Source of the DNA: Harmothoe impar
Lineage: Eukaryota > Annelida > Polychaeta > Phyllodocida > Polynoidae
Assembly (NCBI GenBank): GCA_947462335.1
Contig: OX381719.1
Location: forward strand, 65,822,808 to 65,886,807
Reading direction: 5' to 3'
DNA length: 64,000 bases
Part shown: one piece after another, positions 26,817-49,678 of the stretch
How positions within the stretch are numbered: the first letter of the stretch is position 1
Layout: every line of letters begins with the position of its first letter
Position numbers and translations under genes: made by a program
Notes under the pieces: model-generated
The model's input: the letters and a program-made list of their open reading frames with translations, nothing else
Told to the model about the DNA's origin: nothing
Databases searched by the model: none

Positions 26817-26822
26817 CATAAA
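26817..26822. repeat. 6-bp target-site duplication, left copy
   Basis: CATAAA directly precedes the element end AGTAGTAGGGG. An identical CATAAA follows the other end at 46,134-46,139. Confidence 0.85.
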
Positions 26823-27557
26823 AGTAGTAGGGGAGGTATCCGCAGGACCCCCCTTTTTATCTAGGTCAGTAGGTCAGTAGGTCATTGCTAAGTAGGTCAA
26901 TGATATCCATGAGTCTAAGTAGGTCACCATATGGACATGTTTGAACATGTAGCCTCATTAATTATTCATGTCACAGTTTTAGAATGTTAATGATATGCAT
27001 AACATGGATATTTGGCAAGTGACCAAAGTAAAATCTCATTATGAATGCAATTAAGTCATCCTTTAGACATGTTTGAACATGCAGCCTCAATAAATATTCA
27101 TGTCACACTTAATTTATGTAGGATACAGATGGATATGACGTTAGGCTGGATAGAGCATTATATTATGATCAATTATTAATTGCATAGAATATATATTGTA
27201 TTTGATATGAAGTCACTATATGGTGCAGTATTCAAAGGAAAAACGGTTTGGATCTGTTTGGACATACTTGAAAGAGGCACATCAATATATATTTGGCTGC
27301 TTGAGTTTGAGACATGTCTGGACATGTTCCACATCAAAGAGACCTAGCTTCAACGGAAAAATGGTTTGGCTCTGTTTGGACATGGTTCAAAGAGGCACAT
27401 CATTATATATTCAGATGCTTTGCCAACTGAACATGTTCCTCTGATAGTCATATCATGTGCATGTATACAGAGGGACCTTTATACAGTTTTGTCTATTGAA
27501 TTATAAATCAAAGGTATAATTTGATGATGCTTTATTAAACCTGGTAGTGGAATCAAA
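26823..27557 (+). repeat. Outer inverted-repeat segment, left
   Basis: Matches the reverse complement of 45,399-46,133 almost perfectly. It starts with AGTAGTAGGGG and a short GGTCAGTA tandem, and contains two copies of an iterated motif (GTTTGGATCTGTTTGGACAT). Its length is within the range of Polinton terminal repeats. Confidence 0.9.
27215..27440 (+). repeat. Iterated arm motif, two tandem units
   Basis: Each unit contains a TTTGGATCTGTTTGGACATG-like core followed by AAAGAGGCACATCA and TATATTTGG or ATATTCAG. Variants recur at 28,195-28,385, 31,736-31,850 and 32,226-32,345 and, inverted, in the right arm. They are non-coding by appearance. Confidence 0.75.
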
Positions 27558-27998
27558 TGTGAATATAAGAAATCATATTAGATAGTGGTTAGTTGAGATA
27601 AGTATTGACACAAATCACATCAAAGAGACCTTGCTGGCACTTGTTTAGGCATGTCTCACATCCAACATATCCCGACACCTGTCCAGATTCACATCAAAGA
27701 AATTTGGTTGGCATCTGTTGGGTTATGTTTGAGATTAATCATATACTGATGGCATCTGTCCAGGTTCACATCAAAGAGTTTTGTTTGGCACTGCTTTTGG
27801 ACATATTTCACATCAACATGAGCTTGTTGGCACCAATTTGGCCACATGTTATATCAAAGGAATTTTAAATTAGACCCTTGATAAACCCATCTCTCCTTGC
27901 TGAATATCAAATAAGCCCCCTTGGCTGATAATGGCTTATCTACCTTTTGAGGCATAACAGACAGTTATTACATGATGTATTTTGCTTACATTTTAGTA

Positions 27999-28090
27999 AT
28001 GTCGCCTACCCCTACTTGGCATGGGAAATATTCTCCAACACCTCAAGCACCAAGCTCAGTCAAAAAGCAGCCGCATAGCTTAAGCTATGT
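27999..28090 (+). pseudogene. Duplicated fragment of the PC4-like gene
   Basis: The frame MSPTPTWHGKYSPTPQAPSS followed by VKKQP closely matches MSPTPTYHEECPSTPQAPSR and VKKQP of the PC4-like gene (30,199-30,273). Homology stops on both sides, so this is a pseudogene piece left by an internal duplication of about 2.2 kb offset. Confidence 0.8.
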
Positions 28091-28194
28091 AAAAAATAAA
28101 TATATGTGGGGATATGAAGTGAGGCTGGATGGAGAATTTTACTTAATTAAGTATTAAAGAAAATATATATTGCATGTGCTATGATGTCACAATA

Positions 28195-28385
28195 TGGTAC
28201 AGTATTCAAAGGAAAAATGGTTTGGATCGGTTTCGGCATGCTTCAAAGAGGCAGATCATAATATTTTTGGCTGCTTTAGTTTCAGACGTGTCTGGACATG
28301 TTTCACATCAAAGAGACCTGTTTGGGCACCTTGCCAGTGAATTCATGGTGGCTCATTATATATTCAGTTGTTTGCCAGCTGAACC
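28195..28385 (+). repeat. Iterated arm motif
   Basis: Another copy of the motif: CAGTATTCAAAGGAAAAATG, then TTTGGATC, GGCATGCTTCAAAGAGGCA and a TATATTCAG/CCAGCTGAAC end. Confidence 0.7.
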
Positions 28386-28452
28386 AGGTTGAGGCCGGAA
28401 CCATATTATTAGAACGTACTAAATACATAGTACACCCTTTCCATTGGGTCTT

Positions 28453-28504
28453 TACCAAGATTATGGTACTGTGCACCATCTTGGGCTGTACCATAATCTT
28501 GGTA
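28453..28504. repeat. 17-bp perfect inverted repeat
   Basis: TACCAAGATTATGGTAC at 28,453-28,469 pairs exactly with GTACCATAATCTTGGTA at 28,488-28,504, giving a hairpin with an 18-nt loop. It is found only in the left arm. Confidence 0.8.
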
Positions 28505-29691
28505 TACCTGGTGTGTTCATTGGACCATGATCCCTGCTCATGAAGGTAAATTGGCCAATCACAGCCCAGTACTCATGTACCTTACCTGTGTTCACTGGAC
28601 TGTGACACTTACCTGTGCATGTAATTAGTGGGGTCACAGGTGGGACAAGAGAAACCACTCTACTATTTCATACTTATATTTACATTATATTGCATATTTA
28701 CTACATTATCAAACATCACTAAGTGAATACAAAAACATCATTTTGTGGACCTTAATCAATGATTTCATCCTATGGGTTCATTTTTATTAACAGATTTAAC
28801 TAAATATTAGCAAACTGATTTTACTAAACATTTACTGAGGGAAAATATGTATATAAAGCCATTTCTTAGATAATATTCCGATTTTAGTTATGAAAAAGGG
28901 TGCATACATAAATTATAGACCTCTGCTTCCTATAGTGGCATCAGAATTGTGCATTTTGGCATGGAAATGTGAAAAAGTGACAATAAATGAGTGTACCAAG
29001 TTTTTGGTACACCCTGTGTTCTGGGAACTGTCATTCAATCTTAGGGCGTACTAAGAAACTGGTCAGTCTCCAACCTGTGAACATGTAATCCGGATTGAAC
29101 ATGTTTGAAGCTCATTTATAATGCATGTATTGCTTCTGCTCCTAGACCTTCTGAGGCATAGCAGACATTTTTACATGGTCCATTATGCATAAATTAGGAT
29201 GTTTGATATACTCATCAATCCCTCCTCGCTGAATATAATATAAGTCTTCTCAGGACATAATTGTTTTATTTAGAGGTTTGAAGCCCATTTTTAATCCATG
29301 AAATGTTTCCAGAAGATGGTATTTGACCTGTCTACTATGCTTGAGATCTACAATGATTTCCTGCTGAATATCAAATGAGTGCACCCTGGGCATAATGGTT
29401 TTATCTCATGCTTGAAGTTCATTTGGAATTCATAAGTGAGAGGGGGGCTCATTACATATTCAGTTGTTTGCCAGCTGAACATGTAATCCGGATGGAACAT
29501 GGTTTTGTTTTGGCACAAGTTATGCCAGTTAAGCCATTGATAAATCATTCAATCTCTTCTTGTTGTATATCTAATGAGGCCCCTTGGGCATAACAGCTTT
29601 ATCCTTCACCTTCTGAGGCATAGCAGACATTTTTACATGATCTATTATGCATAAATTTGGAATTTTTCTTATGAAAAGAGCTTTGGCAGAG

Positions 29692-29698
29692 TATATAA
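29692..29698 (+). promoter_or_regulatory. TATA box of the PC4-like gene
   Basis: TATATAA-type box in AGTATATAAGCAGG about 105 bp upstream of the initiator ATG at 29,799, leaving room for a short 5' UTR. The block just upstream (CATAGCAGACATTTTTACAT, near 29,619) recurs near 29,158 and, diverged, at 27,951 and 32,115, so the promoter region itself is part of a repeated module. Confidence 0.65.
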
Positions 29699-29798
29699 GC
29701 AGGATTAATTTAGACACTAGCCAGCCAGTCCTCTTCACACATCCAGCAGAGCAAGAAGCCAAAAGCCTCATCTTAGTATAACATAGACCTCAAACACC

Positions 29799-30987
29799 AT
29801 GAACATGTTTTCTGCAACAAGTCAACCAGCTTATAATGCTGTGAACCCTTATGTGAGTATCTTTCTTACTATAAGTTTTATTGTTGACATAATTATATTA
29901 ATGATAGTTTTTAACTATACAGACTATTGGTTTATCACTATTATTTATTGAGTGAGTGATATCAAAAAAGGTATGTGATATTAATTTTCTTTTTTTAAAC
30001 TCTTATTAGAAACAGGAAAGCGACCTAGATGAGGTGAATCATGAAGATATGGAGGTTGACCACTCAGAAAATTCAACTCAGCACCCGATTATCACGGTTG
30101 CTGGCTTCACAGGATCCAGAAAAAGGTCACTACCCACATCTCTGATGGTGCATGGTCAGTCATTGGCCAAGAGAAGGGAGTTTGAAGGAAGCTTCAACAT
30201 GTCCCCTACCCCTACCTACCATGAAGAATGTCCTTCAACACCTCAAGCACCAAGCAGAGTGAAGAAGCAGCCCAGGTACAACTCCAGATCTGTTAGAACC
30301 ACTAGAGCCAGCACCTTCTATGCAGATCTAGTGAAAAACTCACCCCAAGCTGATGTCTCAGTGAGTTCCCATGGATGTCTTTTTATGGGATCCACAAAGC
30401 AGTCAGCTGAGCCTACCAAGATGCAAAGGCTGTTCTTTAATTTAGGACAGAATTTGTATGTTGATAGGCAACCCGGAAAGGGTGGTGACGGAGATCTTAG
30501 GCTGAGCCTATGGCATACCAACAGCATCAACAAGATGCAAAGGGCCGGATCTCGTTACAGCATTCTGCTGGATTATGATGCAATTCACCAGATTAAAAAG
30601 GAATCAGAGGACATCAAGCTGGGGCTGAGCTTATGCGATGACGACAACTTCTTAGGGTTTGCCTTATCACTTGGCTCTATGAAGTACCTAACCATTGAGT
30701 CTGACATGTGCTTTGTCAATATAAGAAAGTGGTTCAACCCAGCACATGCATATGACGAGCCAAAGCCAGACCTACGCCCATGCAGGGAGGGAGTGCGTCT
30801 CACCTACGAACAATTCAAACGCTTCATTGAGTTCTTGGATACCCAGCTGCTGACAGAGTGTCCTTCCTTTGCTGAACATGTGTTCTGCTGTGATCAAGAG
30901 GACCATGACACCAACTGCTGCTGCATCTGCACCCCCAAGGGGATATTACCCATACAGACAGAGTTCCAACGTCTGCTTGATGAATGA
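29799..30987 (+). CDS. PC4-like (ssDNA-binding coactivator-like) protein, two exons
   Basis: Exon 1 is 29,799-29,852 (18 codons), the intron runs from GTGAGT at 29,853 to CTTATTAG at 30,009, and exon 2 is 30,010-30,987, in phase 0, giving 343 residues. The C-terminal half resembles the PC4/Sub1 fold: LRLSLWHTNSINKM and a second block with VNIRKWFNP, LRPCREGVRLTYEQFKRFIEF, matching the strand-turn and KxGISL-x-x-xQW pattern of PC4. PC4 proteins bind single-stranded DNA and act in transcription and replication. The N-terminal part is Ser/Pro/Lys-rich. A Cys cluster (TNCCCICTP) precedes the stop, and AATAAA lies at 31,104-31,109. A TATA box lies upstream. The PC4 call is from motif reading; the role inside a transposon is inferred. 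Confidence 0.75.
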
Positions 30988-31103
30988 TGTCAAGGAAATC
31001 CTCATGACCAAGACATATTCATGTCAACATATACAATACAAAAAAAAACTAAACATTAAATACTGAACTATCAAACTACTAAACATTAAATACTGAACTA
31101 TTG

Positions 31104-31109
31104 AATAAA
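31104..31109 (+). terminator. Polyadenylation signal of the PC4-like gene
   Basis: AATAAA 117 bp after the stop codon, within an AT-rich 3' end. The mirrored signal is present in the right arm. Confidence 0.6.
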
Positions 31110-31735
31110 AATACATTTATTCATTATTTTACTTGTTGTCTTTTTATTTATTCACTCAAACTATCGAATGCAATAGACTTTGGAAGCAGTAAGTTATTCA
31201 GCTGTCTCAAAGGCATATTGTGACCCTGTAAGAGGAGTTTGATTTTCATATAAACCCAGCAAAGACCATTTGCTTCATTGTTTATTAATCTAATGATGCC
31301 AATTATGATTATGGTCATGACATATGTGTCTAATTTAATTAGAGGGCATCAATGAATAAACTTGGTGGGCAAATCATTAATGTGTTAATTAGTCGAGCAT
31401 AAGTTGTGGTGTCAAAGGTGTATATTCTACTGTGTTAAGCATTTGATATGTACCAGATTTAATTAGGTTTATTAAATGAGTATACCCCGGGCATAACTTA
31501 ACCACACCTTGTGTCTCTGTCAATGTCATTGAATACTTGATTTATGTTATCCACCTACACCTATGAGTCTGACACTGATGACGGAGGATACCCGGTATAC
31601 TGATGGTATGCCATGACTGAGTAATAAGGAGGGATGGAGGTGCGAAATGCAACCTAAAGATGAGAAACAGTGCCAAACCCGCATGGAAATGGCATACAAC
31701 AACATTGACTGTGCCACACTCGGTAGATGAGATGG

Positions 31736-31850
31736 ATGACCAACATATTTTTGGATCTGTTGGGACATGCTTAAAAATTAAAGGCACATCATTATATATT
31801 CTGCTGCTTGCCAACTTTGGTTGGCAAGTGAACATGTTCCTTTGACAGGA
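31736..31850 (+). repeat. Iterated arm motif
   Basis: Variant with TTTGGATCTGTTGGGACATG, AAAGGCACATCATTATATAT and TTGGCAAGTGAACATGTTCC. It is mirrored in the right arm at about 41,060-41,175. Confidence 0.7.
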
Positions 31851-32225
31851 GTTGTGCCAGGTTAGGTCATTAATCATTCCTGCTGTATATTAAATGAGTG
31901 CACCCACTCTGGGCATAACGGTTTTATCCTGTGGTTTGAAACTCATTGGTGGGAGGGTGGCTCTTTACATATCCAATTGTTTGCTAGCTGAACAGATCAA
32001 ACATGTGTTTGTTTTGCAAGGGCATTGCCACGTAAGCCAATGATAAACCCATCAATCTTTCCCTCCTAAATATCAAATGAGTCCCCTCAGGGCATTACGG
32101 CTCTATCCCTTTGCCTTTTGACGCAAAGCAGACATTTCTACTAAAGTTTCACTGGATGGAGCATTACATTTGATCAGGTATCATTTACAGGAAAAAAATA
32201 TATGTGCTATGTGATGATGTCACTA

Positions 32226-32345
32226 TGTGGTACAGTATTCAAAGGGAAAAAAAGGTTTGGATCTGTTTGAACATGCTTCAAAGAGGCACATCATTACATA
32301 TTCAGATGCTTGCCAACTTTGGTTGCCAACTGAACATGTTCCTTA
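32226..32345 (+). repeat. Iterated arm motif
   Basis: Variant with GTACAGTATTCAAAGGG, TTTGGATCTGTTTGAACATG, CAAAGAGGCACATCATTACA and CAACTGAACATGTTCC. It is mirrored at about 40,565-40,685. Confidence 0.7.
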
Positions 32346-32455
32346 GGCTAGCTTTGTGTCAGGTTAAGTCACCAATCATTATTGCAGTAAAGGGGCTTTT
32401 AATCTTCACAGGACAGAATATTTACTCATCAAGAATCCAACAAATCTTTATGTAA

Positions 32456-33587
32456 CTAATTCATCTTTACATGTCCAGAGAAAAGGAAAAAAGATAAGCA
32501 GCTATAGATCTAAACTGGAAAATGATAAGAGATGTGGGGTAATAAGGGAAAATAATTGTTGATATACAATGTCATTTTATTGTTTTAAATTAAGCTAAAA
32601 GTGGGTATATCAATTTTTTGCCAAATTCTAAATCCTACATAAATATGTTCCAAATACTGTAAAAGTGTATTATTTATGTGTTGGAGTACATTAAAATGGT
32701 ATCCATGGGCAGTAGCAGCTCAGAACGTGGGTCCCATGGGGTCCAACCATGGTCTTTTCTAGTGATTTTACCATGGGGCATTAAAACCATGCACAATTTT
32801 ATTTGAAAATTACCATATTTTAGGAAATAAAATCAAATTTGGGCAATAACGGTGGAAATGAGGAGGAATTGAGTAGATAGGAAGTTCAGTATGGTATCTA
32901 GGAAAATCCTGACTCATTGTTAGGGACATTATTTTCTTTTGTCCCACACATCGGATATACTCACTTTAAGAGAGTTAAATGATTCAAGGTACATATCACC
33001 TTATCCTATATTTTTCTAACATCCTATGCCTTTAGAAGTATGGCCATATTCTTTTTTAAACCCTGATGAATAAAAGAATAATAAAGTATCATTTGATTCA
33101 TTTGAGTTTGAGTGGAGTTTTATACGTGTTTATTTCAAACTTTTTATTTACATATCATTGAATTGGAATATTGGGCAAATGGTATACAAAACTGACATGG
33201 GCTCGCATACTTAGCTCAAATATAGAACATGGGTGCTTCATATGGAAACCATCAGTAGGAGTACTATGTCATATGAGTTGAAATTGAGTTTATATAGGCA
33301 TTAGTAATATTTATATTAGACATGAATGAAATACTACATCATTGCTTAAACTTTATATGTATGGATTCATGTGAACTACCAGAAAACTAAACAGATCCAG
33401 TGATACAAAGTTCCAGTCTTTATTTGTCCACTTGATACAGTGATGAGTTGATTCATGATTAATTGTGGTGTAAATTTGAAAAGTCTTTAGCCAGGTCAGT
33501 GTCATATGAATTAAGTAATGTGTAAAAACTTTGTAAAATGTCTGCTGGCACTGAGTATCCAACTGGGATGGAAGGAGCAGGTTTTGT
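32456..33587. other. Arm DNA without a gene
   Basis: AT-rich sequence between the iterated motifs and the C2H2 gene, mirrored in the right arm. No open frame of note. Confidence 0.5.
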
Positions 33588-34409
33588 TCAAACCTGAGCA
33601 GGTTTTATAGGCACACCAATCCTGAAGGTGGAAAGGTGGTGATAATCGAGGACTGGAGAAGAGGTGGTTGTATAGGTGGATGTAGACCAGTCATTGTCTG
33701 TAGCCTCTGGGGATAGTGTTTCAGTTTCAACATCCATGGTGTTCAAACTGATAGTTGGCTCAAGTGGCACACTAATACTAGTGGGCTCCAATGGTGCATT
33801 GATAACAGGTGTTGATAAAGGTGATTCCCTGTTAGGACAGAAGCTGCATGGTCCTAAGTTGGTCCTAAAGTAGTCATCAATCTGTTTGTCACTTAGTTGT
33901 AGGCATGGTGGACTAGAATAACTGAAGAGGATCTGGTCAGCATCTACCTCTGTGCTGAAAATTTGGGCGGCTCCACTGATATTGCTGTTAGCCAGCTTAG
34001 CTTCAGCAAGGTAGGGTCCTGCGGCAGACCCAGCCAGCGTGAGGCTAGGGATGTTGCAGTCCAAACCCAGTAGGGCATAGTCATCACAGGAAATGGAATC
34101 CAATGAGCTAGTCTTGCCATTAACACTTGTAACTTTGAGTCCCTTCTTATTTTTTGAACCACCTTTCGATTCGACTATGTCTCGGACACAGCTGGAGGCA
34201 ACGTCTTTAAAAGCTTTAGTTGATGGCTTGTGTTTGTTTCTGAAGTGACGCCTTAGTGCAGCCTTAGACTTGTATTCTCGGTAGCACTCGCTGCAGACAA
34301 ATGCACTATCATCTTCCATGTCATGTACCTTTGCGTAATGTTCCCTTATGGCTACTAAGGATGGGCATGGGAGATCACAGACATGACAAACATATGCCAT
34401 GCTTGACAT
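33588..34409 (-). CDS. Two-finger C2H2 protein, left-arm copy (early stop)
   Basis: The 273-residue frame opens with two C2H2 zinc fingers: C-H-V-C...HYAKVH (about residues 8-29) and C-S-E-C...HFRNKH (about 39-60), each C-x2-C-x12-H-x4-H, followed by a basic stretch. The remainder is Ser/Thr-rich and acidic with a third Cys pair (CSFCPN). It is probably a DNA-binding regulator encoded by the element. Compared with the right-arm copy it is intact through the middle but ends early: GTTTGA here reads GTTGGA there, removing about 24 C-terminal residues. It runs toward the outer end of the arm, opposite to the PC4-like gene. Confidence 0.75.
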   Translation of the reverse strand: MSSMAYVCHVCDLPCPSLVAIREHYAKVHDMEDDSAFVCSECYREYKSKAALRRHFRNKHKPSTKAFKDVASSCVRDIVESKGGSKNKKGLKVTSVNGKTSSLDSISCDDYALLGLDCNIPSLTLAGSAAGPYLAEAKLANSNISGAAQIFSTEVDADQILFSYSSPPCLQLSDKQIDDYFRTNLGPCSFCPNRESPLSTPVINAPLEPTSISVPLEPTISLNTMDVETETLSPEATDNDWSTSTYTTTSSPVLDYHHLSTFRIGVPIKPAQV

Positions 34410-35287
34410 TGTCTGTTGGTGATTAGTTTAAAACAGGTGGTTAACCCGTCAGTATGCCCAGCTGAAGTTTGAATGACTGCATGTGGTTTTTCATTGTTGC
34501 CGGATGGAAATGGCATCTCACAGAGGAGTGGAGATGTTTAGAGCATTGCTGATTGGTCTACCAGCTTTGGCTCATGCCCATTGATGCATGAGCTTACAGG
34601 TGACAAATTGTTTGTGGGAGGGCTGCTATAGGTAGACGGATACTATAAGAGTCCAGATTCAAATATTGCAATGATTGTATTTGTCCGTTACTATGTAATA
34701 ACTCATAACTTGGTGGAGGAAGATGGATGTGTGGTTTGATTACGTGCCTATGGCTCAGGAATAAAGATTCTAGAAAAAATGATGGCTTCATTATTGTTAG
34801 ATAGATTTTGTCACTTTTTTACCACTAAAATACATTTCATAACTTTTATTGGTATGTTGATTATTATATCAGAGCATGATTGATTGTAATGTGTAATCTG
34901 ACACATAAGCGCTCAGACATTATTGATCTATAACCAGGTTTGAATATTCATCAGTTAAGGAAGATGGCAAACTGCTATATATATGATTTTTATCAATAGA
35001 AAACAGAGAAAACATCATTCACATGTCAGGGTGTTTGTTAAATCAATTAGGATTACATATTACTTTGATATTTCAGAGTTTCCAATAAACTAACATTCAT
35101 CCTGCATACTAGATGCTACAGGATTGAGACACTTTTGTACATCTAAAAATGAAAAGAGCTCTTTAATATATCAACTAAAAGCTGCTATCAACATTTTTTA
35201 TGTAGGAGTTTATAGCTTTTTGTTCCATAATGCCCTCCATGTCACACTGATATGTCTCATTGATGGCTTTGATATTTGATCGTAGCT

Positions 35288-35515
35288 CTACTTTCCTCTG
35301 TAGATGGATGTTATTTCCTGATTATCATTCTTACTGGCTGTGGACTTACATTGGAGTTTTGAGAGGGTTACTGGAGCTTCTTCTTCATTGATGATTGTTG
35401 CCTCATGTACAATTTTGGGAGTGCTCTTTCGACATGGGCTCTGCTGTTTAACTTTGTAGTCAAGGATAGGTACCCATGTGTTATATTGATCTGACCAACC
35501 TAACCAGCTGACCAT
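35288..35515 (-). pseudogene. Chromodomain-like relic, left-arm copy
   Basis: A 75-residue frame begins MVSWLGWSDQYNTWVPILDY, resembling the C-terminal chromodomain of Polinton-type integrases, where a V-x-W-x-G-(W/Y)-x-x-x-x-N-(S/T)-W-(V/I)-P pattern is characteristic. The rest is Lys/Ser/Glu-rich. No integrase core lies beside it, so only a remnant or an isolated chromodomain protein remains. Identical in the right arm. Confidence 0.5.
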
Positions 35516-35889
35516 AGCCTCTTACTGTTTCCATTACCTGTGAGTCAGAATGTCCCCTTCTTCATATACATTTCATTCTTTGATGACATAAGTCTTTTTG
35601 GGGGGTGGCTCTCTTTCTGTGCAGACACCACCTCCTTGTTGGTGCTCATGTTGGGAGACGGCTGGTCCAGGGGGTGCAATGGATATACTTGAGGTTCTCT
35701 TTTAGTGATGATTGCCATATCCATTACAACTTTACTGATGTTGTCTCTCTCTGGGCTTTGAAACGTTGATTAGATTAAGATTTAGATTAAGATTTAAGTT
35801 GAGGGCTTGTGGTTCTTTAGTAAGTGCTGAATCTCTCCACTTTCGAAACAAGATGCGTTTGTCAGGGGTATGATGCAGCTTGAGGTGTC

Positions 35890-36048
35890 TCAGCATGTCA
35901 GGTCGGCGGGACGTTGAATAGCTACACTGTTCTGGGCAAAGTTAGCCTTGAGGATAACTTCCATAAATAATGGAAGCATTCTGGTGAGGCTGTACTTTTT
36001 AGCTAAATCTTTTCCACAGTCCATCCAGGAATATATGTCTGTCAGCAT
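35890..36048 (-). CDS. Small ORF near the palindrome centre, left copy
   Basis: A 52-codon frame from the first ATG downstream of two TATA-like boxes (MLTDIYSWMDCGKDLAKKYS at its start). In a second frame that overlaps its end, a single C2H2 finger is encoded (CPEQCSYSTSRRPDMLRHLK then LHH). A frameshift, programmed or mutational, or splicing would join them. The same arrangement is found in the right arm. Confidence 0.45.
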   Translation of the reverse strand: MLTDIYSWMDCGKDLAKKYSLTRMLPLFMEVILKANFAQNSVAIQRPADLTC

Positions 36049-36136
36049 GGTTCTGTGCAAACAAGATGGTGATCTGTTATATTGTTGTTTCTTTTCTGGA
36101 TCTCTCTGCAGTTTTGCAAGAAAGAAAGCAATGGGT

Positions 36137-36195
36137 CTTTTATATTCCCCTGCATCGTCTCCCCATTGATTGTTGATGCAGTGGGTCTTTTATAG
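36137..36195 (-). promoter_or_regulatory. Duplicated TATA-like boxes, left copy
   Basis: On the minus strand CTATAAAAG and ATATAAAAG occur about 49 bp apart within a duplicated GGGGAGACRATGC context, upstream of the small ORF at 35,890-36,048. Confidence 0.5.
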
Positions 36196-36416
36196 TCCCT
36201 GGCATTGTCTCCTCACATGCTTGTTGATGCTCCTTGCACAGTATGCTGGGGAGGAAGGCTTTACTTTGGTACCCCGCATCCCTACACAATCTCAACCATG
36301 ACTTACTGACCTACATAATGGTCCCCCGCATCCCCTACACATTCTCAACCATGACCTACTGTCCTACATAAAATGTGGTTATGAATAACATTGGCCCCCC
36401 GCATTTTGCATGATGC

Positions 36417-36493
36417 TCGCATGTTTCCCGCAAAAGATGCAGGGAACATGCGGGGGATGCAGGGGGACAAAAGTTTGGTCCCCCTGCATCCCC
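36417..36493. repeat. Palindrome centre: 77-bp spacer of nested hairpins
   Basis: Between the two arms lie two smaller imperfect palindromes: GCATGTTTCCC facing GGGAACATGC, then GGGGATGCAGGGGGA facing TCCCCCTGCATCCCC around an AAAGTTTGG loop. There is thus no unique spacer of normal composition. Confidence 0.8.
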
Positions 36494-36716
36494 TGCATCA
36501 TGCAAAATGCGGGGGCCCAATGTTATTCATAACCACATTTTATGTAGGACAGTAGGTCATGGTTGAGAATGTGTAGGGGATGCGGGGGACCATCATGTAG
36601 GTCAGTAAGTCATGGTTGAGATTGTGTAGGGATGCGGGGTACCAAAGTAAAGCCTTCCTCCCCAGCATACTGTGCAAGGAGCATCAACAAGCATGTGAGG
36701 AGACAATGCCAGGGAC

Positions 36717-36774
36717 TATAAAAGACCCACTGCATCAACAATCAATGGGGAGACGATGCAGGGGAATATAAAAG
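36717..36774 (+). promoter_or_regulatory. Duplicated TATA-like boxes, right copy
   Basis: CTATAAAAG at 36,717 and ATATAAAAG at 36,766, 49 bp apart in a tandem duplication, followed by an ATG at 36,863. Confidence 0.5.
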
Positions 36775-36862
36775 ACCCATTGCTTTCTTTCTTGCAAAAC
36801 TGCAGAGAGATCCAGAAAAGAAACAACAATATAACAGATCACCATCTTGTTTGCACAGAACC

Positions 36863-37179
36863 ATGCTGACAGACATATATTCCTGGATGGACTGTGGAAA
36901 AGATTTAGCTAAAAAGTACAGCCTCACCAGAATGCTTCCATTATTTATGGAAGTTATCCTCAAGGCTAACTTTGCCCAGAACAGTGTAGCTATTCAACGT
37001 CCCGCCGACCTGACATGCTGAGACACCTCAAGCTGCATCATACCCCTGACAAACGCATATTGTTTCGAAAGTGGAGAGATTCAGCACTTACTAAAGAACC
37101 ACAAGCCCTCAACTTAAATCTTAATCTAAATCTTAATCTAATCAACGTTTCAAAGCCCAGAGAGAGACAACATCAGTAA
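36863..37179 (+). CDS. Small ORF plus overlapping single C2H2 finger frame, right copy
   Basis: 36,863-37,021 encodes 52 residues from the first ATG after the TATA pair. In the next frame (about 36,971-37,179) the sequence encodes LCPEQCSYSTSRRPDMLRHL followed by KLHHTPD, a C-x2-C-x12-H-x3-H finger, then an Arg/Lys/Leu/Asn-rich tail. The same overlap exists in the left arm, so the frame break predates the palindrome or is a genuine frameshift or splice feature. A further short ORF (37,187-37,366, 59 residues, Pro/Lys-rich) follows. Confidence 0.5.
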
Positions 37180-37395
37180 AGTTGTAATGGATATGGCAAT
37201 CATCACTAAAAGAGAACCTCAAGTATATCCATTGCACCCCCTGGACCAGCCGTCTCCCAACATGAGCACCAACAAGGAGGTGGTGTCTGCACAGAAAGAG
37301 AGCCACCCCCCAAAAAGACTTATGTCATCAAAGAATGAAATGTATATGAAGAAGGGGACATTCTGACTCACAGGTAATGGAAACAGTAAGAGGCT

Positions 37396-37623
37396 ATGGT
37401 CAGCTGGTTAGGTTGGTCAGATCAATATAACACATGGGTACCTATCCTTGACTACAAAGTTAAACAGCAGAGCCCATGTCGAAAGAGCACTCCCAAAATT
37501 GTACATGAGGCAACAATCATCAATGAAGAAGAAGCTCCAGTAACCCTCTCAAAACTCCAATGTAAGTCCACAGCCAGTAAGAATGATAATCAGGAAATAA
37601 CATCCATCTACAGAGGAAAGTAG
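37396..37623 (+). pseudogene. Chromodomain-like relic, right-arm copy
   Basis: Mirror copy of 35,288-35,515, identical in protein sequence. A possible splice donor-like CACAG/GTAATG lies upstream at about 37,374, so it could be an exon joined to the preceding short ORFs. The motif SWLGWSDQYNTWVP is the reason for linking it to integrase chromodomains. Confidence 0.5.
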
Positions 37624-38501
37624 AGCTACGATCAAATATCAAAGCCATCAATGAGACATATCAGTGTGACATGGAGGGCATTATGGAACAAAAAGCTATA
37701 AACTCCTACATAAAAAATGTTGATAGCAGCTTTTAGTTGATATATTAAAGAGCTCTTTTCATTTTTAGATGTACAAAAGTGTCTCAATCCTGTAGCATCT
37801 AGTATGCAGGATGAATGTTAGTTTATTGGAAACTCTGAAATATCAAAGTAATATGTAATCCTAATTGATTTAACAAACACCCTGACATGTGAATGATGTT
37901 TTCTCTGTTTTCTATTGATAAAAATCATATATATAGCAGTTTGCCATCTTCCTTAACTGATGAATATTCAAACCTGGTTATAGATCAATAATGTCTGAGC
38001 GCTTATGTGTCAGATTACACATTACAATCAATCATGCTCTGATATAATAATCAACATACCAATAAAAGTTATGAAATGTATTTTAGTGGTAAAAAAGTGA
38101 CAAAATCTATCTAACAATAATGAAGCCATCATTTTTTCTAGAATCTTTATTCCTGAGCCATAGGCACGTAATCAAACCACACATCCATCTTCCTCCACCA
38201 AGTTATGAGTTATTACATAGTAACGGACAAATACAATCATTGCAATATTTGAATCTGGACTCTTATAGTATCCGTCTACCTATAGCAGCCCTCCCACAAA
38301 CAATTTGTCACCTGTAAGCTCATGCATCAATGGGCATGAGCCAAAGCTGGTAGACCAATCAGCAATGCTCTAAACATCTCCACTCCTCTGTGAGATGCCA
38401 TTTCCATCCGGCAACAATGAAAAACCACATGCAGTCATTCAAACTTCAGCTGGGCATACTGACGGGTTAACCACCTGTTTTAAACTAATCACCAACAGAC
38501 A

Positions 38502-39396
38502 ATGTCAAGCATGGCATATGTTTGTCATGTCTGTGATCTCCCATGCCCATCCTTAGTAGCCATAAGGGAACATTACGCAAAGGTACATGACATGGAAGAT
38601 GATAGTGCATTTGTCTGCAGCGAGTGCTACCGAGAATACAAGTCTAAGGCTGCACTAAGGCGTCACTTCAGAAACAAACACAAGCCATCAACTAAAGCTT
38701 TTAAAGACGTTGCCTCCAGCTGTGTCCGAGACATAGTCAAATCGAAAGGTGGTTCAAAAAATAAGAAGGGACTCAAAGTTACAAGTGTTAATGGCAAGAC
38801 TAGCTCATTTGATTCCATTTGCCTGTGATGACTATGCCCTACTGGGTTTGGACTGCAACATCCCTAGCCTCACGCTGGCTGGGTCTGCCGCAGGACCCTA
38901 CCTTGCTGAAGCTAAGCTGGCTAACAGCAATATCAGTGGAGCCGCCCAAATTTTCAGCACAGAGGTAGATGCTGACCAGATCCTCTTCAGTTATTCTAGT
39001 CCACCATGCCTACAACTAAGTGACAAACAGATTGATGACTACTTTAGGACCAACTTAGGACCATGCAGCTTCTGTCCTAACAGGGAATCACCTTTATCAA
39101 CACCTGTTATCAATGCATCATTGGAGCCCACTAGTATTAGTGTGCCACTCGAGCCAACTATCAGTTTGAACACCATGGATGTTGAAACTGAAACACTATC
39201 CCCAGAGGCTACAGACAATGACTGGTCTACATCCACCTATACAACCACCTCTTCTCCAGTCCTCGATTATCACCACCTTTCCACCTTCAGGATTGGTGTG
39301 CCTATAAAACCTGCTCAGGTTGGAACAAAACCTGCTCCTTCCATCCCAGTTGGATACTCAGTGCCAGCAGACATTTTACAAAGTTTTTACACATAA
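38502..39396 (+). pseudogene. Two-finger C2H2 gene, right-arm copy (frameshift)
   Basis: The same protein as the left-arm C2H2 gene. The fingers are intact (38,502-38,700), but one extra G near 38,820 (CCATTTGCCTG against CCATTTCCTG) shifts the frame after about 105 residues. The rest continues in another frame to 39,396 and keeps the longer C-terminus (PAQVGTKPAPSIPVGYSVPA). The two copies therefore carry lesions at different sites. Confidence 0.8.
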
Positions 39397-41921
39397 CTTA
39401 ATTCATATGACACTGACCTGGCTAAAGACTTTTCAAATTTACACCACAATTAATCATGAATTAACTCATCACTGTATCAAGTGGACAAATAAAGACTGGA
39501 ACTTTGTATCACTGGATCTGTTTAGTTTTCTGGTAGTTCACATGAATCCATACATATAAAGTTTAAGCAATGATGTAGTATTTCATTCATGTCTAATATA
39601 AATATTACTAATGCCTATATAAACTCAATTTCAACTCATATGACATAGTACTCCTACTGATGGTTTCCATATGAAGCACCCATGTTCTATATTTGAGCTA
39701 AGTATGCGAGCCCATGTCAGTTTTGTATACCATTTGCCCAATATTCCAATTCAATGATATGTAAATAAAAAGTTTGAAATAAACACGTATAAAACTCCAC
39801 TCAAACTCAAATAAATCAAATGATACTTTATTATTCTTTTATTCATCAGGGTTTAAAAAAGAATATGGCCATACTTCTAAAGGCATAGGATGTTAGAAAA
39901 ATATAGGATAAGGTGATATGTACCTTGAATCATTTAACTCTCTTAAAGTGAGTATATCCGATGTGTGGGACAAAAGAAAATAATGTCCCTAACAATGAGT
40001 CAGGATTTTCCTAGATACCATACTTAACTTCCTATCTACTCAATTCCTCCTCATTTCCACCGTTATTGCCCAAATTTGATTTTATTTCCTAAAATATGGT
40101 AATTTTTAAATAAAATTGTGCATGGTTTTAATGCCCCATGGTAAAATCACTAGAAAAGACCATGGTTGGACCCCATGGGACCCACGTTCTGAGCTGCTAC
40201 TGCCCATGGATACCATTTTAATGTACTCCAACACATAAATAATACACTTTTACAGTATTTGGAACATATTTATGTAGGATTTAGAATTTGGCAAAAAATT
40301 GATATACCCACTTTTAGCTTAATTTAAAACAATAAAATGACATTGTATATCAACAATTATTTTCCCTTATTACCCCACATCTCTTATCATTTTCCAGTTT
40401 AGATCTATAGCTGCTTATCTTTTTTCCTTTTCTCTGGACATGTAAAGATGAATTAGTTACATAAAGATTTGTTGGATTCTTGATGAGTAAATATTCTGTC
40501 CTGTGAAGATTAAAAGCCCCTTTACTGCAATAATGATTGGTGACTTAACCTGACACAAAGCTAGCCTAAGGAACATGTTCAGTTGGCAACCAAAGTTGGC
40601 AAGCATCTGAATATGTAATGATGTGCCTCTTTGAAGCATGTTCAAACAGATCCAAACCTTTTTTTCCCTTTGAATACTGTACCACATGGTGACATCATCA
40701 CATAGCACATACATTTTTTTCCTGTAAATGATACCTGATCAAATGTAATGCTCCATCCAGTGAAACTTTAGTAGAAATGTCTGCTTTGCGTCAAAAGGCA
40801 AAGGGATAGAGCCGTAATGCCCTGAGGGGACTCATTTGATATTTAGGAGGGAAAGATTGATGGGTTTATCATTGGCTTACGTGGCAATGCCCTTGCAAAA
40901 CAAACACATGTTTGATCTGTTCAGCTAGCAAACAATTGGATATGTAAAGAGCCACCCTCCCACCAATGAGTTTCAAACCACAGGATAAAACCGTTATGCC
41001 CAGAGTGGGTGCACTCATTTAATATACAGCAGGAATGATTAATGACCTAACCTGGCACAACTCCTGTCAAAGGAACATGTTCACTTGCCAACCAAAGTTG
41101 GCAAGCAGCAGAATATATAATGATGTGCCTTTAATTTTTAAGCATGTCCCAACAGATCCAAAAATATGTTGGTCATCCATCTCATCTACCGAGTGTGGCA
41201 CAGTCAATGTTGTTGTATGCCATTTCCATGCGGGTTTGGCACTGTTTCTCATCTTTAGGTTGCATTTCGCACCTCCATCCCTCCTTATTACTCAGTCATG
41301 GCATACCATCAGTATACCGGGTATCCTCCGTCATCAGTGTCAGACTCATAGGTGTAGGTGGATAACATAAATCAAGTGTTCAATGACATTGACAGAGACA
41401 CAAGGTGTGGTTAAGTTATGCCCGGGGTATACTCATTTAATAAACCTAATTAAATCTGGTACATATCAAATGCTTAACACAGTAGAATATACACCTTTGA
41501 CACCACAACTTATGCTCGACTAATTAACACATTAATGATTTGCCCACCAAGTTTATTCATTGATGCCCTCTAATTAAATTAGACACATATGTCATGACCA
41601 TAATCATAATTGGCATCATTAGATTAATAAACAATGAAGCAAATGGTCTTTGCTGGGTTTATATGAAAATCAAACTCCTCTTACAGGGTCACAATATGCC
41701 TTTGAGACAGCTGAATAACTTACTGCTTCCAAAGTCTATATTCGATAGTTTGAGTGAATAAATAAAAAGACAACAAGTAAAATAATGAATAAATGTATTT
41801 TTATTCAATAGTTCAGTATTTAATGTTTAGTAGTTTGATAGTTCAGTATTTAATGTTTAGTTTTTTTTTGTATTGTATATGTTGACATGAATATGTCTTG
41901 GTCATGAGGATTTCCTTGACA

Positions 41922-42899
41922 TCATTCATCAAGCAGACGTTGGAACTCTGTCTGTATGGGTAATATCCCCTTGGGGGTGCAGATGCAGCAGCAGTTGGTG
42001 TCATGGTCCTCTTGATCACAGCAGAACACATGTTCAGCAAAGGAAGGACACTCTGTCAGCAGCTGGGTATCCAAGAACTCAATGAAGCGTTTGAATTGTT
42101 CGTAGGTGAGACGCACTCCCTCCCTGCATGGGCGTAGGTCTGGCTTTGGCTCGTCATATGCATGTGCTGGGTTGAACCACTTTCTTATATTGACAAAGCA
42201 CATGTCAGACTCAATGGTTAGGTACTTCATAGAGCCAAGTGATAAGGCAAACCCTAAGAAGTTGTCGTCATCGCATAAGCTCAGCCCCAGCTTGATGTCC
42301 TCTGATTCCTTTTTAATCTGGTGAATTGCATCATAATCCAGCAGAATGCTGTAACGAGATCCGGCCCTTTGCATCTTGTTGATGCTGTTGGTATGCCATA
42401 GGCTCAGCCTAAGATCTCCGTCACCACCCTTTCCGGGTTGCCTATCAACATCCAAATTCTGTCCTAAATTAAAGAACAGCCTTTGCATCTTGGTAGGCTC
42501 AGCTGACTGCTTTGTGGATCCCATAAAAAGACATCCATGGGAACTCACTGAGACATCAGCTTGGGGTGAGTTTTTCACTAGATCTGCATAGAAGGTGCTG
42601 GCTCTAGTGGTTCTAACAGATCTGGAGTTGTACCTGGGCTGCTTCTTCACTCTGCTTGGTGCTTGAGGTGTTGAAGGACATTCTTCATGGTAGGTAGGGG
42701 TAGGGGACATGTTGAAGCTTCCTTCAAACTTCCTTCTCTTGGCCAATGACTGACCATGCACCATCAGAGATGTGGGTAGTGACCTTTTTCTGGATCCTGT
42801 GAAGCCAGCAACCGTGATAATCGGGTGCTGAGTTGAATTGTCTGAGTGGTCAACCTCCATATCTTCATGATTCACCTCATCTAGGTCGCTTTCCTGTTT
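41922..42899 (-). pseudogene. PC4-like gene, right-arm copy lacking promoter and exon 1
   Basis: Exon 2 is preserved from the splice acceptor (exon start 42,899) to the stop and differs from the left copy at only three residues of 317 noted (Glu/Asp, Glu/Lys, Tyr/Asp). Intron homology continues to 43,012, where the arm is replaced by unrelated sequence, so the donor site, first exon and TATA box are absent. It could be expressed only from another promoter. Confidence 0.85.
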
Positions 42900-43012
42900 C
42901 TAATAAGAGTTTAAAAAAAGAAAATTAATATCACATACCTTTTTTGATATCACTCACTCAATAAATAATAGTGATAAACCAATAGTCTGTATAGTTAAAA
43001 ACTATCATTAAT

Positions 43013-45398
43013 GTCGGGCATAACTTCCATTGGGGAAGTTATTCCCATATTAGTGACATACCAGTGCCACCTAGTGCCTCCTACCGGCACCAGCCGTGGA
43101 ACTCTTCTCCAGGGGAGGGGAGGTACCAGCAGCAAGCAAGCAGGCAGCAAGGCCAGCAGCAGGCCAGCAGAGACTCTGATTTTTTTCGGTCAAGAATTCG
43201 GTCAAAATGACGGTCTGCTTTTGCGGAACGGAGTACCATGGCAACAGGAACTCCTGCCCCAAATGCAATGCCCCAAACCCGGACAAGGGAACCCCCAGGA
43301 AGGTGTTGCAGGGACAGGACCAGCCTGCACCGGCACAGGACGACCATGGCGGCTCCGAGGGCCGGCAAGAGACCGGCCAGGGCAGCTCTGCCTCGCCGGC
43401 ACCCCCGGGCGGTACGGCCCGCCAACACAGCGCGGAGGCCGCGGAGTACAGTGCGGCCCGGGAGGTAGAGCTTCAGCAAGCCTTAGATCGCCTCGAAACT
43501 TTGACAATAAAGGAAAAGGCTAGAGAAGAGGACCTTAAGCGGACACAGAGGCTGAAGGAAGCGGAGATGGAGCTGGCATCCTTAAGAGCAGCAAATAACC
43601 GGATAGAAAGGGATACAAAGTTCGCCGAATCCGCATTCCGCGGTGTTGTTGAGGCCGTGGAGAGCGCAGACGGATTGCAGCGGTCCGCAGACCCCCGAGG
43701 AAGCGCCTTATGCTACACGGACGAGGGTACCAGCGGCCACCACCTGTCCGCATTACCTGAGGAAGACTTCGGCCGAAGCTTTCCGTCTCTGTCCGCGAAG
43801 CAGCAGCTCGGCGCGCATGCGCAAACCAAGATGGCGGACCATAACATCCGCCCAGACGAAAACAGAGAGGAGGGGGTCGCTTTTTCGCAATTTCTGGCAG
43901 AACAAAGGCGAATAAAAGCTCTAAACCGGTCGCAAACGATAGAGCATGTACATTTACCCCAGTCCCGATCCTCAAAGCCGTCGCAATTGTCGCAGAAAAG
44001 TTGGTTGGGGGACTTTTGTGAGAATGGCCAGATCCCACCTACCTCGGCGGCGACATCGTCTTTGATCGCGGGTGGTGCGCTTCATCCCGGGGTGCCGGGA
44101 GGCTCCACGCTTCATCACGGACACCCGGGGAGCTTCACGCTTCATCATGGTACAGGTCAGTCTGGCAGTTTTAAGCAAGCAGGGGGTGTGTCTAGGCCTG
44201 CTGGGGCCACAACATCCTCTCAGGTGTCTGATCCTACCAATGAAGGGAAGCATGGACACACCCAACAGCAGCAGGAGCAGTGTCAACAGCAGGTGTTGGG
44301 GCAGCATCAACAGCAGCAGCAGCAACAGCAGGAGGATGCAGACCCCTCCTATGCAGAATTTCTGCTGTGGAGACAGCAGCAACAGTGGGCTGGGTTGGCA
44401 GGGGATGTGACCCCTTCCACCCAGTCTACTCAACATAATCAGCAAACACTACAGCAACATCTACAGCAACAGCGGGGCCAACACGGGTCCAACCGGTATC
44501 AACAGCAGCAATCCTACACTTCAGGCCAACCCCTCTCCGCGACACCCCCGCCAGGTTTCTCTAGTCTGCCATCGGCAGGTGGGCTAGGCATAAATCTGGG
44601 GGCGAGCCACACCCTGCACACCGGGCTAGCTACGGCAGGGTTGGGCTTCGGCAACATGGGCCTACAGTCGGGGGATGTTGATGGCCTCTTCAGAAATGTC
44701 GCGTCAGGTAAGTCAGCTGTGGAGGGTGATATCCTGGCCTCTCTACATGCAGCTAATGAGGCTAGCATGAGGAAAAGGTCCAAGCTGTGGATCAGGCCAG
44801 ACTACCACCTCCCAGCTGACAAAGACTACAGCGAAATGTCATATAGGGAGTTAATTTACGGGATGATCAATGTCACGCAGGCCCTGATCATAGCCGATCA
44901 TCCCGACTTGAGCCCCTTGTCATACCTAGATCACATGAAATTCATCGCCCTGAAGGAGATAAAACCCACCTATTGCATGAAGGCCATATGCCAGTATGAT
45001 AGAGAGGTGACCGACAAGGTGCTGAAAAAGCAGATCCCCAAGTTTGCCGCGGCTGACCACGGTGCGATGGCAAACAACATGGGCATGGACAAAACTCTGG
45101 CCTACGTAAAGATGCAACAGGAGATGGCAAAGCAGATGTCCCTTCTAAACAAGGCCCCGGGCAAGCCACCAGCTAGGCCGTCAAGTCAGGGCAAATTCAG
45201 GATCGACTGCCCTGACCACCTGTGCAAGCGGTTCAACTTCACGGCGTGCGATTGGACATTATGCAGGAAGCAACACTCGTGTGCGGTCTGCGGTGGCCCG
45301 CACGGGGCTCGGGGATGCGCACACAACCCCTACAACCAAGGGGGGCAGCCTCAGAGCCAGGGTAGCTTCCTGTTTCTAATAAGAGTTTAAAAAAACTT
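43013..45398 (+). mobile_element. Replacement segment in the right arm: 5' part of a YR retroelement
   Basis: 2,386 bp with no match in the left arm, GC-richer than the surrounding arm. It contains a gag-like ORF preceded by about 190 bp of leader. At its right end a 29-bp stretch (45,367-45,395, starting TTCCTGTTTCTAATAAGAG) repeats 42,891-42,919 of the neighbouring PC4-like gene exactly. It is bounded on both sides by palindrome sequence. No terminal repeat of a complete retroelement was recognised. Confidence 0.75.
43207..45390 (+). CDS. Gag-like ORF1 of a DIRS/Ngaro-type retroelement, C-terminus truncated
   Basis: A 727-residue frame. It begins with a small Cys motif (C4, C6, C17, C20: CFCGTEYHGNRNSCPKCNA), then a Leu/Glu/Lys-rich coiled coil (about 95-140), a long Gln-rich region (about 350-450; CAG/CAA runs) and a conserved-looking block (MSYRELIYGMINVTQALI). 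The end has a Cys/His module at 668-704 (CPDHLCKRFNFTACDWTLC then HSCAVCGGPHGARGC) typical of ORF1 in tyrosine-recombinase retroelements, probably for nucleic-acid binding. The last ~8 residues come from the duplicated 29-bp arm sequence, so the native C-terminus is lost. No reverse transcriptase follows. Confidence 0.75.
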   Translation: MTVCFCGTEYHGNRNSCPKCNAPNPDKGTPRKVLQGQDQPAPAQDDHGGSEGRQETGQGSSASPAPPGGTARQHSAEAAEYSAAREVELQQALDRLETLTIKEKAREEDLKRTQRLKEAEMELASLRAANNRIERDTKFAESAFRGVVEAVESADGLQRSADPRGSALCYTDEGTSGHHLSALPEEDFGRSFPSLSAKQQLGAHAQTKMADHNIRPDENREEGVAFSQFLAEQRRIKALNRSQTIEHVHLPQSRSSKPSQLSQKSWLGDFCENGQIPPTSAATSSLIAGGALHPGVPGGSTLHHGHPGSFTLHHGTGQSGSFKQAGGVSRPAGATTSSQVSDPTNEGKHGHTQQQQEQCQQQVLGQHQQQQQQQQEDADPSYAEFLLWRQQQQWAGLAGDVTPSTQSTQHNQQTLQQHLQQQRGQHGSNRYQQQQSYTSGQPLSATPPPGFSSLPSAGGLGINLGASHTLHTGLATAGLGFGNMGLQSGDVDGLFRNVASGKSAVEGDILASLHAANEASMRKRSKLWIRPDYHLPADKDYSEMSYRELIYGMINVTQALIIADHPDLSPLSYLDHMKFIALKEIKPTYCMKAICQYDREVTDKVLKKQIPKFAAADHGAMANNMGMDKTLAYVKMQQEMAKQMSLLNKAPGKPPARPSSQGKFRIDCPDHLCKRFNFTACDWTLCRKQHSCAVCGGPHGARGCAHNPYNQGGQPQSQGSFLFLIRV

Positions 45399-46133
45399 TT
45401 TGATTCCACTACCAGGTTTAATAAAGCATCATCAAATTATACCTTTGATTTATAATTCAATAGACAAAACTGTATAAAGGTCCCTCTGTATACATGCACA
45501 TGATATGACTATCAGAGGAACATGTTCAGTTGGCAAAGCATCTGAATATATAATGATGTGCCTCTTTGAACCATGTCCAAACAGAGCCAAACCATTTTTC
45601 CGTTGAAGCTAGGTCTCTTTGATGTGGAACATGTCCAGACATGTCTCAAACTCAAGCAGCCAAATATATATTGATGTGCCTCTTTCAAGTATGTCCAAAC
45701 AGATCCAAACCGTTTTTCCTTTGAATACTGCACCATATAGTGACTTCATATCAAATACAATATATATTCTATGCAATTAATAATTGATCATAATATAATG
45801 CTCTATCCAGCCTAACGTCATATCCATCTGTATCCTACATAAATTAAGTGTGACATGAATATTTATTGAGGCTGCATGTTCAAACATGTCTAAAGGATGA
45901 CTTAATTGCATTCATAATGAGATTTTACTTTGGTCACTTGCCAAATATCCATGTTATGCATATCATTAACATTCTAAAACTGTGACATGAATAATTAATG
46001 AGGCTACATGTTCAAACATGTCCATATGGTGACCTACTTAGACTCATGGATATCATTGACCTACTTAGCAATGACCTACTGACCTACTGACCTAGATAAA
46101 AAGGGGGGTCCTGCGGATACCTCCCCTACTACT
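45399..46133 (-). repeat. Outer inverted-repeat segment, right
   Basis: Reverse complement of 26,823-27,557, including the two iterated motifs and the terminal CCCCTACTACT. Confidence 0.9.
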
Positions 46134-46139
46134 CATAAA
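46134..46139. repeat. 6-bp target-site duplication, right copy
   Basis: CATAAA directly after the terminal CCTACTACT, identical to 26,817-26,822. Confidence 0.85.
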
Positions 46140-48135: not shown

Positions 48136-48569
48136 TCTGTGATCGGCCGGAAACGGAAGCCACCACCCTCAACTAACCCCCTGATACAGGCCCAAAATAC
48201 CGGAAGTGACCTGATATGGCTTCCCCGTCTGACGTAGGTACGTTCGAGTATCGATTTAACCACATGGCTTGATAAGTCACTTTACCATTGGCTCCAGTAG
48301 TCTTCTCAGACCATTCTCGCTAAGAACAGTGTAGTCTCCAGAAGCTGTAAGTGTCTGTACAGTGTGTAGCCTCTACTAGTCTCCCTCACTACTCCCACAC
48401 ACCGGTCCTGTTGCTGCATGTAGCAGCATAACCCGGTTTGCTGCTCCCCTCTCAGAGCTCCTGCAGCCAACTGCTCCCACAGCCCTGGGTCAGGCACCAC
48501 CTGCTGCTCTGACACACAGGGGGCAGCACTGTGGTAGGTAGAGGGAGCAGCTCAGGGAAGCTTGTAGTG

Positions 48570-49555: not shown

Positions 49556-49678
49556 CAGGCTAGTAGCCATTAATCACCGGTATGCTACTGAAGGTGGGTG
49601 ATGCAGTCCACTTCACACTCACTCCCATCATTCCCTCACTGTGACTGTTTCTTGGTCACAATTTTATGATGATATGTA

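Follow-up and report, generated by a model that had tools for sequence, protein, structure and literature searches.

What is a mobile element that consists mostly of two inverted copies of itself, and how do its two halves stay alike? The question is raised by a 64,000-nucleotide stretch of the genome of the polychaete Harmothoe impar (the window; positions 65,822,808 to 65,886,807 of contig OX381719.1, here C19, in an assembly of 1.51 Gb and 736 contigs), in which a palindromic transposable element lies at 26823-46133. A first-pass annotation of the window had taken it for a single rearranged copy of a Polinton-like element that moved as a unit. Movement as a unit is borne out, and we find in place of a single copy a multi-copy family with one common centre, ~16-20 kb in element length and built from a repeated unit of ~9.5 kb in two inverted copies; exact 6-bp target-site duplications (TSDs), different each time, flank whole palindromes in 11 of the 12 copies read at both ends (the window copy and 10 of 11 others). 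As judged from sequence comparison, the palindrome is the unit that moves, with its arms homogenised within each lineage, because the TSDs differ, the copies differ from one another in both arms at once, and no arm-specific changes are shared.

The flanks and ends reported by the first-pass annotation were found in place: CATAAA stands at 26817-26822 and 46134-46139, the termini are AGTAGTAGGGG with AGTAGT on both sides, and the outer inverted repeat (26823-27557 versus 45399-46133) matches at 100% over 735 bp. The inner arms (29897-36416 and 36495-43012) are 99.65% identical over 6,521 bp, with 19 substitutions and two indels, and stop 39 bp short of the palindrome centre on each side, close to the ~40 bp first given. 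The description of one giant palindrome with a constant position sum of 72,910 is right in part: the palindrome is real and the inner arms alone give ~72,910, the outer repeat gives 72,956, and the inverted repeats make up 7,255 bp of each ~9.6-kb half. Segments A (2,339 bp, GC content 0.37) and B (2,386 bp, GC content 0.565), which complete the two halves, share only chance matches of 10-15 bp, which rules out a single unbroken or perfect palindrome for this copy. The palindromic architecture is far beyond chance, as it recurs in other genomic copies with arms of 7.9-9.4 kb. The parts of the window element, including its terminal inverted repeats (TIRs), are as follows.

26817-26822, no strand: left TSD, CATAAA, from sequence comparison of both flanks
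26823-27557, forward: left TIR, beginning AGTAGTAGGGG; 100% to 45399-46133 and 84-90% to the ends of full Polintons
27558-29896, forward: segment A, arm sequence native to the family, which this copy has on its left side alone; no homology to B, colinear in copy L035
29897-36416, forward: left inner arm, 99.65% inverted match to 36495-43012
30034-30987, forward: PC4-like gene, left copy, 317 amino acids (aa); Pfam PC4 E 0.024, under the cut-off; 12 relatives
33588-34409, reverse: left copy of the C2H2 zinc-finger gene, falling short of the 322 aa of the frame in copy L011; Pfam zf-C2H2, best E 1.2e-4
35291-35521, reverse: chromodomain-like scrap, 18 aa at 56% to the integrase chromodomain of the L029 Polinton (E 2e-6); Pfam Chromo E 0.007
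36402-36509, no strand: palindrome centre, predicted two-eared Y hairpin around a 78-bp asymmetric core (36417-36494), from folding and alignment
36495-43012, reverse: right inner arm, inverted match to the left inner arm
38502-39396, forward: C2H2 gene, right copy, frame split in two, from frame comparison
41922-42875, reverse: right copy of the PC4-like gene; its frame is open, and a tyrosine that is invariant in the family is altered; from frame and family comparison
43013-45398, forward: segment B, a GC-rich insert of foreign sequence that contains a gag-like frame of 727 aa (43207-45390); no homology to A
45399-46133, reverse: right TIR, 100% to the left TIR
46134-46139, no strand: right TSD, CATAAA, from sequence comparison of both flanks

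Colinearity of L035 with the complete left arm of the window copy (26823-36494), at 97.6%, marks segment A as native to the family. Segment B replaced native sequence in the right arm; it was not found in the 20 element halves L009-L028, and at its outer end 45367-45395 repeats 29 bp of the element's own sequence upstream of the PC4-like gene (42891-42919). Its long frame, which has two metagenome relatives, we presume to be gag-like from a zinc-knuckle-like motif; a Pfam search gave no match. Template switching with capture of a piece of a foreign gene would explain this segment.

A genome search for other copies with the same ends, proposed by the first-pass annotation, found the family and again 6-bp TSDs. 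The terminus gave at least 80 matches with 40 of 201 candidates scored, and the copy counts are therefore lower bounds. We compared the window copy with ten copies fetched as two halves each (L009-L028) and an eleventh on C18. In 8 of the 11 fetched copies the arms are inverted over 7.9-9.4 kb at 99.64-99.94%, and the ninth (L023/L024) has two arm blocks, 3.8 kb at 99.97% and 5.7 kb at 98.99%. The TSDs are CATAAA, CTCAAG, AACAGG, AATATT, GATGCA, TATATA, GGTGGT, ATAATG, GTCGTG, AATACA and GGTGCC; the copy lacking one (L027/L028) has no left terminus. The C18 copy (2.80-2.84 Mb) spans 40 kb, its left arm alone being interrupted at L031:8091 by sequence starting AGTAGTATATAGG, which looks like the end of another Polinton element. 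L035 and L036, read at one end, have one arm and continue through the centre, and terminus matches alone are symmetric at C6:18.6 Mb and C1:26.3 Mb. In L013, L017 and L036 the terminal repeat also recurs behind the end, within the first 2.7 kb, as two or three incomplete copies in tandem.

That arms are alike within dissimilar copies is seen from an alignment of both arms of six copies (the window copy, L009, L011, L021, L023 and L025, with their partners). Columns were masked where within-copy arm agreement fell below 80% over 61 columns, which removes window segments A and B and pieces near some centres. These six copies diverge by 1-5%, and others by up to a quarter in aligned blocks. Over 6,449-8,941 columns, each of the 15 copy pairs is separated by 99-425 differences on which the two arms of each copy agree. 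The copies have 19, 15, 4, 8, 7 and 21 arm-specific substitutions (74 in sum), and no column with such a change is asymmetric in a second copy. In 63 cases the change is private to a single arm (36 in the left, 27 in the right), in 10 both states are seen elsewhere, and one is undetermined. Thus, the arms were equalised after the copies separated and later aged apart. One-arm lesions are kept in at least 5 of the 12 copies, namely window segment B, a deletion in L023, the nested element on C18, L015/L016 and L027/L028.

The centre, too, is a shared feature. When 111 bp of inner arm and the 78-bp core were searched as one sequence, with all 30 candidates scored, 25 loci in the genome matched, of which 21 show both arms; at 17 of them 50 bp or more of inner arm stands on either strand, which does not prove full arms. 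L015/L016, L021/L022 and L025/L026 are palindromic wholly or in part as judged from their halves, and at C19:64.53 Mb the other arm lies beyond a gap of ~1.2 kb. Outside the both-arm count are C704, cut by the contig end, and C458, C15:32.3 Mb and C2:71.8 Mb, which were unread; the small contigs C308, C458 and C507 may be alternative haplotypes. Copies with different TSDs have the same asymmetric core, which folds into a two-eared Y at -53.4 kcal/mol (z -12.2; 0 of 200 shuffles as good). Across nine aligned copies, excluding L035 (doubled core) and L016 (partial core), 98.6% of 346 cells are paired in this fold. Five pairs are changed on both sides versus 1.3 in shuffles (2 of 500 reach five); two of them lie in the outer stem, where arm homogenisation alone could yield them. 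The centre is thus predicted to be a conserved two-eared Y hairpin with modest covariation. At L035:163-344 and C308:5015-5388 the Y-shaped core occurs twice in tandem, and C308 may be the other haplotype of the same copy. We also considered whether the inner arm end is an inverted Polinton terminus, as in a fused dimer; the match was suggestive only (73 bp at 70%, score 20 versus 18-19 for other internal windows).

The relation to Polintons can be examined within the same genome, where full elements sharing the ends, looked for as the first-pass annotation had advised, were found in L030 and in an element on C1 that was read as three unjoined pieces (L029, L032 and L033). The C1 Polinton is 20.3 kb long, with ends alike at 81% over ~576 bp and the TSD GTTGCC, and the TIR of the window element matches both ends of the C1 element, as well as L030, at 84-90% over 524-540 bp. 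L029 and L030 start with the same end (89-90% over ~530 bp) and a PC4-like gene (88% and 86% protein identity), followed by other genes. The C1 element has an integrase core (Pfam, E 1.2e-13) with a chromodomain (E 6.8e-6), an ATPase-like frame (PF04665, E 0.006, under the cut-off), a 1,878-aa frame in L032 with what we take to be PolB motifs A, B and C in order, and a 460-aa frame that we assume to resemble the Polinton capsid protein, for which searches gave no match. Searches of Pfam, PDB and PHROGs with the full Polinton returned zinc fingers, NADAR, a Death domain and integrase, and no polymerase or capsid match. The L032 frame also carries N-terminal C2H2 fingers and a weak C-terminal NADAR-like domain, and the element has a Death-domain gene. 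In viral contigs, no relatives of the L029 integrase were confirmed and the terminal 17-mer was not found.

According to one published description, Mavericks end in (AGT)2...(ACT)2 or (AG)3...(CT)3 and have a 6-bp TSD (PMC8097293). The palindromic family shows both features and has the same ends as an autonomous element in its own genome, in keeping with the Polinton-type ends and TSD first proposed for it. The absence of the replication and capsid set from the arms, also claimed early on, agrees with our comparisons. Beyond 31150, 12 of 129 stop-free arm fragments match L029, L030, L032 or L033, 11 in the repeat region 31480-32452 and one being the chromodomain scrap. Among these fragments no retroviral-like integrase was found apart from that 18-aa chromodomain match, and none matches the L032 polymerase frame outside repeats. 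Nor was a capsid or packaging ATPase found: the open reading frames (ORFs) of the arm give only PC4-like, C2H2 and chromo matches in Pfam, and only PC4 and chromo matches against the L029 frames. Lacking integrase, PolB, capsid and ATPase in its arms, the family is therefore filed as a Polinton-derived satellite and not as a Polinton. The suggestion that it arose by head-to-head duplication of one Polinton end survives for part of the arm at most, because matches to the Polinton pieces read are confined to the terminus and its degenerate repeats, the PC4 block and the chromodomain scrap.

The two genes carried in place of that set are those first noted, a PC4-like and a zinc-finger gene. Of 14 copies checked, nine keep the PC4-like frame open (318-325 aa), and it is broken in L013/14, L017/18, L023/24, L027/28 and L036; nine of the 14 have an open C2H2 frame of at least 319 aa in one arm or both, and this frame is broken in the window copy, L009/10, L013/14, L017/18 and L019/20. 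In the window copy the C2H2 gene is shortened on the left and broken on the right. Breaks are mirrored in both arms of L013/14, L017/18 and L019/20, and of L009/10 for the C2H2 gene; therefore, the lesions had been copied into the second arm by the time of insertion. Insertion still took place for copies whose genes are broken, which points to help in trans; the copies with the two genes broken in both arms (L013/14 and L017/18) have TSDs.

Among open copies, compared in pairs that are not independent, ratios of nonsynonymous to synonymous change (dN/dS) are 0.16-0.63 for the PC4-like gene (15 pairs, six copies), 0.25-0.30 between it and the L030 Polinton gene (six comparisons) and 0.15-0.29 for the C2H2 gene (six pairs, four copies); L029 versus L030 gives 1.09 for PC4, with few changes. 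Between L011 and L025 the non-coding arm differs by 4.4-4.7% and the two genes by 2.2-3.2%. Judged by codon changes, purifying selection is shown for both genes in copies that keep their frames open. The PC4-like protein has 12 metagenome relatives at 45-62%, and its match to Pfam PC4 is weak, with E <= 1 for 12 of 13 family members and a best E of 2e-4. PC4-family relatives were not confirmed in viral contigs or prokaryote genomes, a search for relatives of the window C2H2 protein found none, and neither protein showed a catalytic domain. An AlphaFold model of the PC4-like protein was too poor to use (mean pLDDT, the predicted local distance difference test score, 41.6).

Taken together, we propose that the family is a Polinton-ended palindromic satellite that the integrase of full Polintons mobilises in trans and that is copied via a snapped-back hairpin that resets its arms, and we give this reading a probability of roughly 0.6. 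Movement by Polinton integrase would be the simplest reading because the ends and TSD length are shared, and copying might be carried out by the Polinton protein-primed polymerase. Folding of one strand of the palindrome at its Y centre would give a duplex of 9.6 kb, open at the TIR and closed by a hairpin at the other end, in which arm mismatches would be repaired, or one arm templated by the other. Synthesis would start at the open end, round the hairpin and regenerate the full palindrome, which would then be integrated, its arms diverging thereafter like long terminal repeats (LTRs). Such a hairpin replication form could jointly explain the self-complementary body, the conserved turnaround and the likeness of the arms at each insertion, and a PC4-like protein binding single-stranded DNA (ssDNA) would fit a cycle with long single strands. 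It is tempting to speculate further, and we do so tentatively, that there is a class of self-complementary elements that combine an adenovirus-like protein-primed start at an open terminus with a parvovirus-like two-eared turnaround, in which the palindrome is the replicating form and arm divergence an insertion clock, and which supply their own PC4-like ssDNA-binding protein and parasitise the polymerase and integrase of Polintons.

Several observations weigh against this proposal. The hairpin form, the extrachromosomal stage and transposition are deduced from genome sequence, none having been directly observed; the mobilising integrase is assigned through shared ends only; and the PolB identity of the full-Polinton frame is presumed from motifs, with no polymerase match in Pfam or PDB. 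The three compensatory changes in the ears sit in one ear and come from a single copy. Mosaic arms occur in L015/L016 (4.4 kb at 99.64%, the remainder 86-94%) and L027/L028 (2.5 kb at 99.43%, the remainder weaker), and L037 (C8:2.20-2.21 Mb) has the family terminus followed by full-Polinton sequence and is non-palindromic over the 10 kb read. For the copy at C5:77.2 Mb, 1 kb at the expected place of the far terminus contained no match, so that its contribution is limited to one full arm, the core and the beginning of the second arm. Separately, L015/L016 (C12:68.63 Mb) has an outer left arm of the window type (96.7%), an outer right arm of another subfamily and inner arms at 99.64%, a mosaic that suggests exchange between copies.

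The main rival holds that Polinton-derived palindromes move as plain double-stranded units with no hairpin step, and that arm-to-arm gene conversion on the chromosome erases differences, as it keeps arms alike in Y-chromosome palindromes. Long, near-identical arms are a good substrate for conversion, and the zero shared asymmetries and hundreds of both-arm differences are as expected under it as under resetting at insertion. The retained one-arm lesions are what favours resetting, as constant conversion would tend to erase them; in addition, 63 of the 74 arm-specific substitutions are private and spread over both arms, and conversion offers no reason for a conserved two-eared centre. We consider this rival possible and, on balance, rather unlikely.

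The remaining alternatives are weaker still. An unrecognised enzyme encoded by the element itself might move it, the Polinton-like ends being a leftover; open PC4-like and C2H2 genes with dN/dS below 1 would suit this. Neither protein showed a catalytic domain, however, and TSDs also flank the copies with both genes broken in both arms, making this explanation improbable. Protein-primed linear replicons are known to give inverted dimers, and each palindrome might have arisen separately by fold-back or break-induced duplication of a Polinton end; a common asymmetric core in copies with different TSDs, and palindromes lying inside the TSDs, contradict such independent origins, which we regard as very improbable. 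Palindromes are a known assembly hazard, for example when reads turn back on themselves, but the two sides have different flanks, exact TSDs occur at 11 of 12 copies on chromosome-size contigs, and arm-specific substitutions and indels are present; on the TSDs and flanks, an artefact is rejected as having a negligible chance.

The satellite resembles several known systems and coincides with none. Like Polinton/Maverick elements, which are adintovirus-like, it has (AGT)2 ends, a long TIR, a 6-bp TSD, a PC4-like gene shared with them in this genome and a chromodomain scrap; unlike them, it lacks an integrase core, PolB, ATPase or capsid gene in the arms searched, and its body is an inverted duplication around a hairpin. 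With Foldback/Galileo elements and miniature inverted-repeat transposable elements it shares a mainly inverted-repeat, non-autonomous and multi-copy nature, and it differs in its Polinton ends, 6-bp TSD, length of 16-20 kb, pair of genes that are under selection where their frames are open, conserved and structured centre, and concerted arms. Foldback/Galileo elements belong to the P superfamily, defined by a P-type transposase and its TSD length; a Pfam scan of the arm ORFs found no transposase, and the TSD here is 6 bp. Parvovirus termini and self-complementary adeno-associated virus genomes likewise place two inverted copies around a two-eared hairpin turnaround (predicted here), whereas in this family no Rep-like gene was seen and the hairpin lies in the middle of an integrated, Polinton-ended transposon. 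In inverted-dimer derivatives of protein-primed linear plasmids and adenoviruses, too, one end of a terminal-protein replicon is duplicated in inverted orientation; the present family is distinct in being heritable, genomic and multi-copy, with its own centre. We found no such palindromic Polinton family in the literature on Polintons and palindromic transposons, a body of text from which most subscription papers and Repbase were absent; a search on inverted dimers of adenovirus and linear plasmids yielded no useful paper, and the string 'palindrom' does not occur in an article on giant transposons (PMC6431247).

Other mobile sequences surround the element in the window. A tyrosine-recombinase gene (25174-26385, reverse strand; DUF3504 and Phage_integrase in Pfam), perhaps a Crypton- or DIRS-type remnant, lies ~430 bp outside its left end. 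A Gypsy-like retroelement with integrase and zinc-knuckle gag and a reverse transcriptase of the long interspersed nuclear element type occupy 173-5516 and 17006-19735, and arrays of tandem repeats, in which several phases have long open frames, occur at 20405-20897, 48554-49564, 56805-57241 and 60827-62698.

Long palindromes are usually viewed as unstable accidents, and here a palindrome is the heritable, transposing form of an element. Despite divergence of up to a quarter, most copies retain near-identical arms and a structured centre. Questions such as the origin of Polinton satellites, the passage of a protein-primed replicon around a hairpin end and the dating of insertions by arm divergence, as is done with LTRs, are thereby made testable, and the family provides a natural, genome-wide setting in which to study palindrome upkeep.

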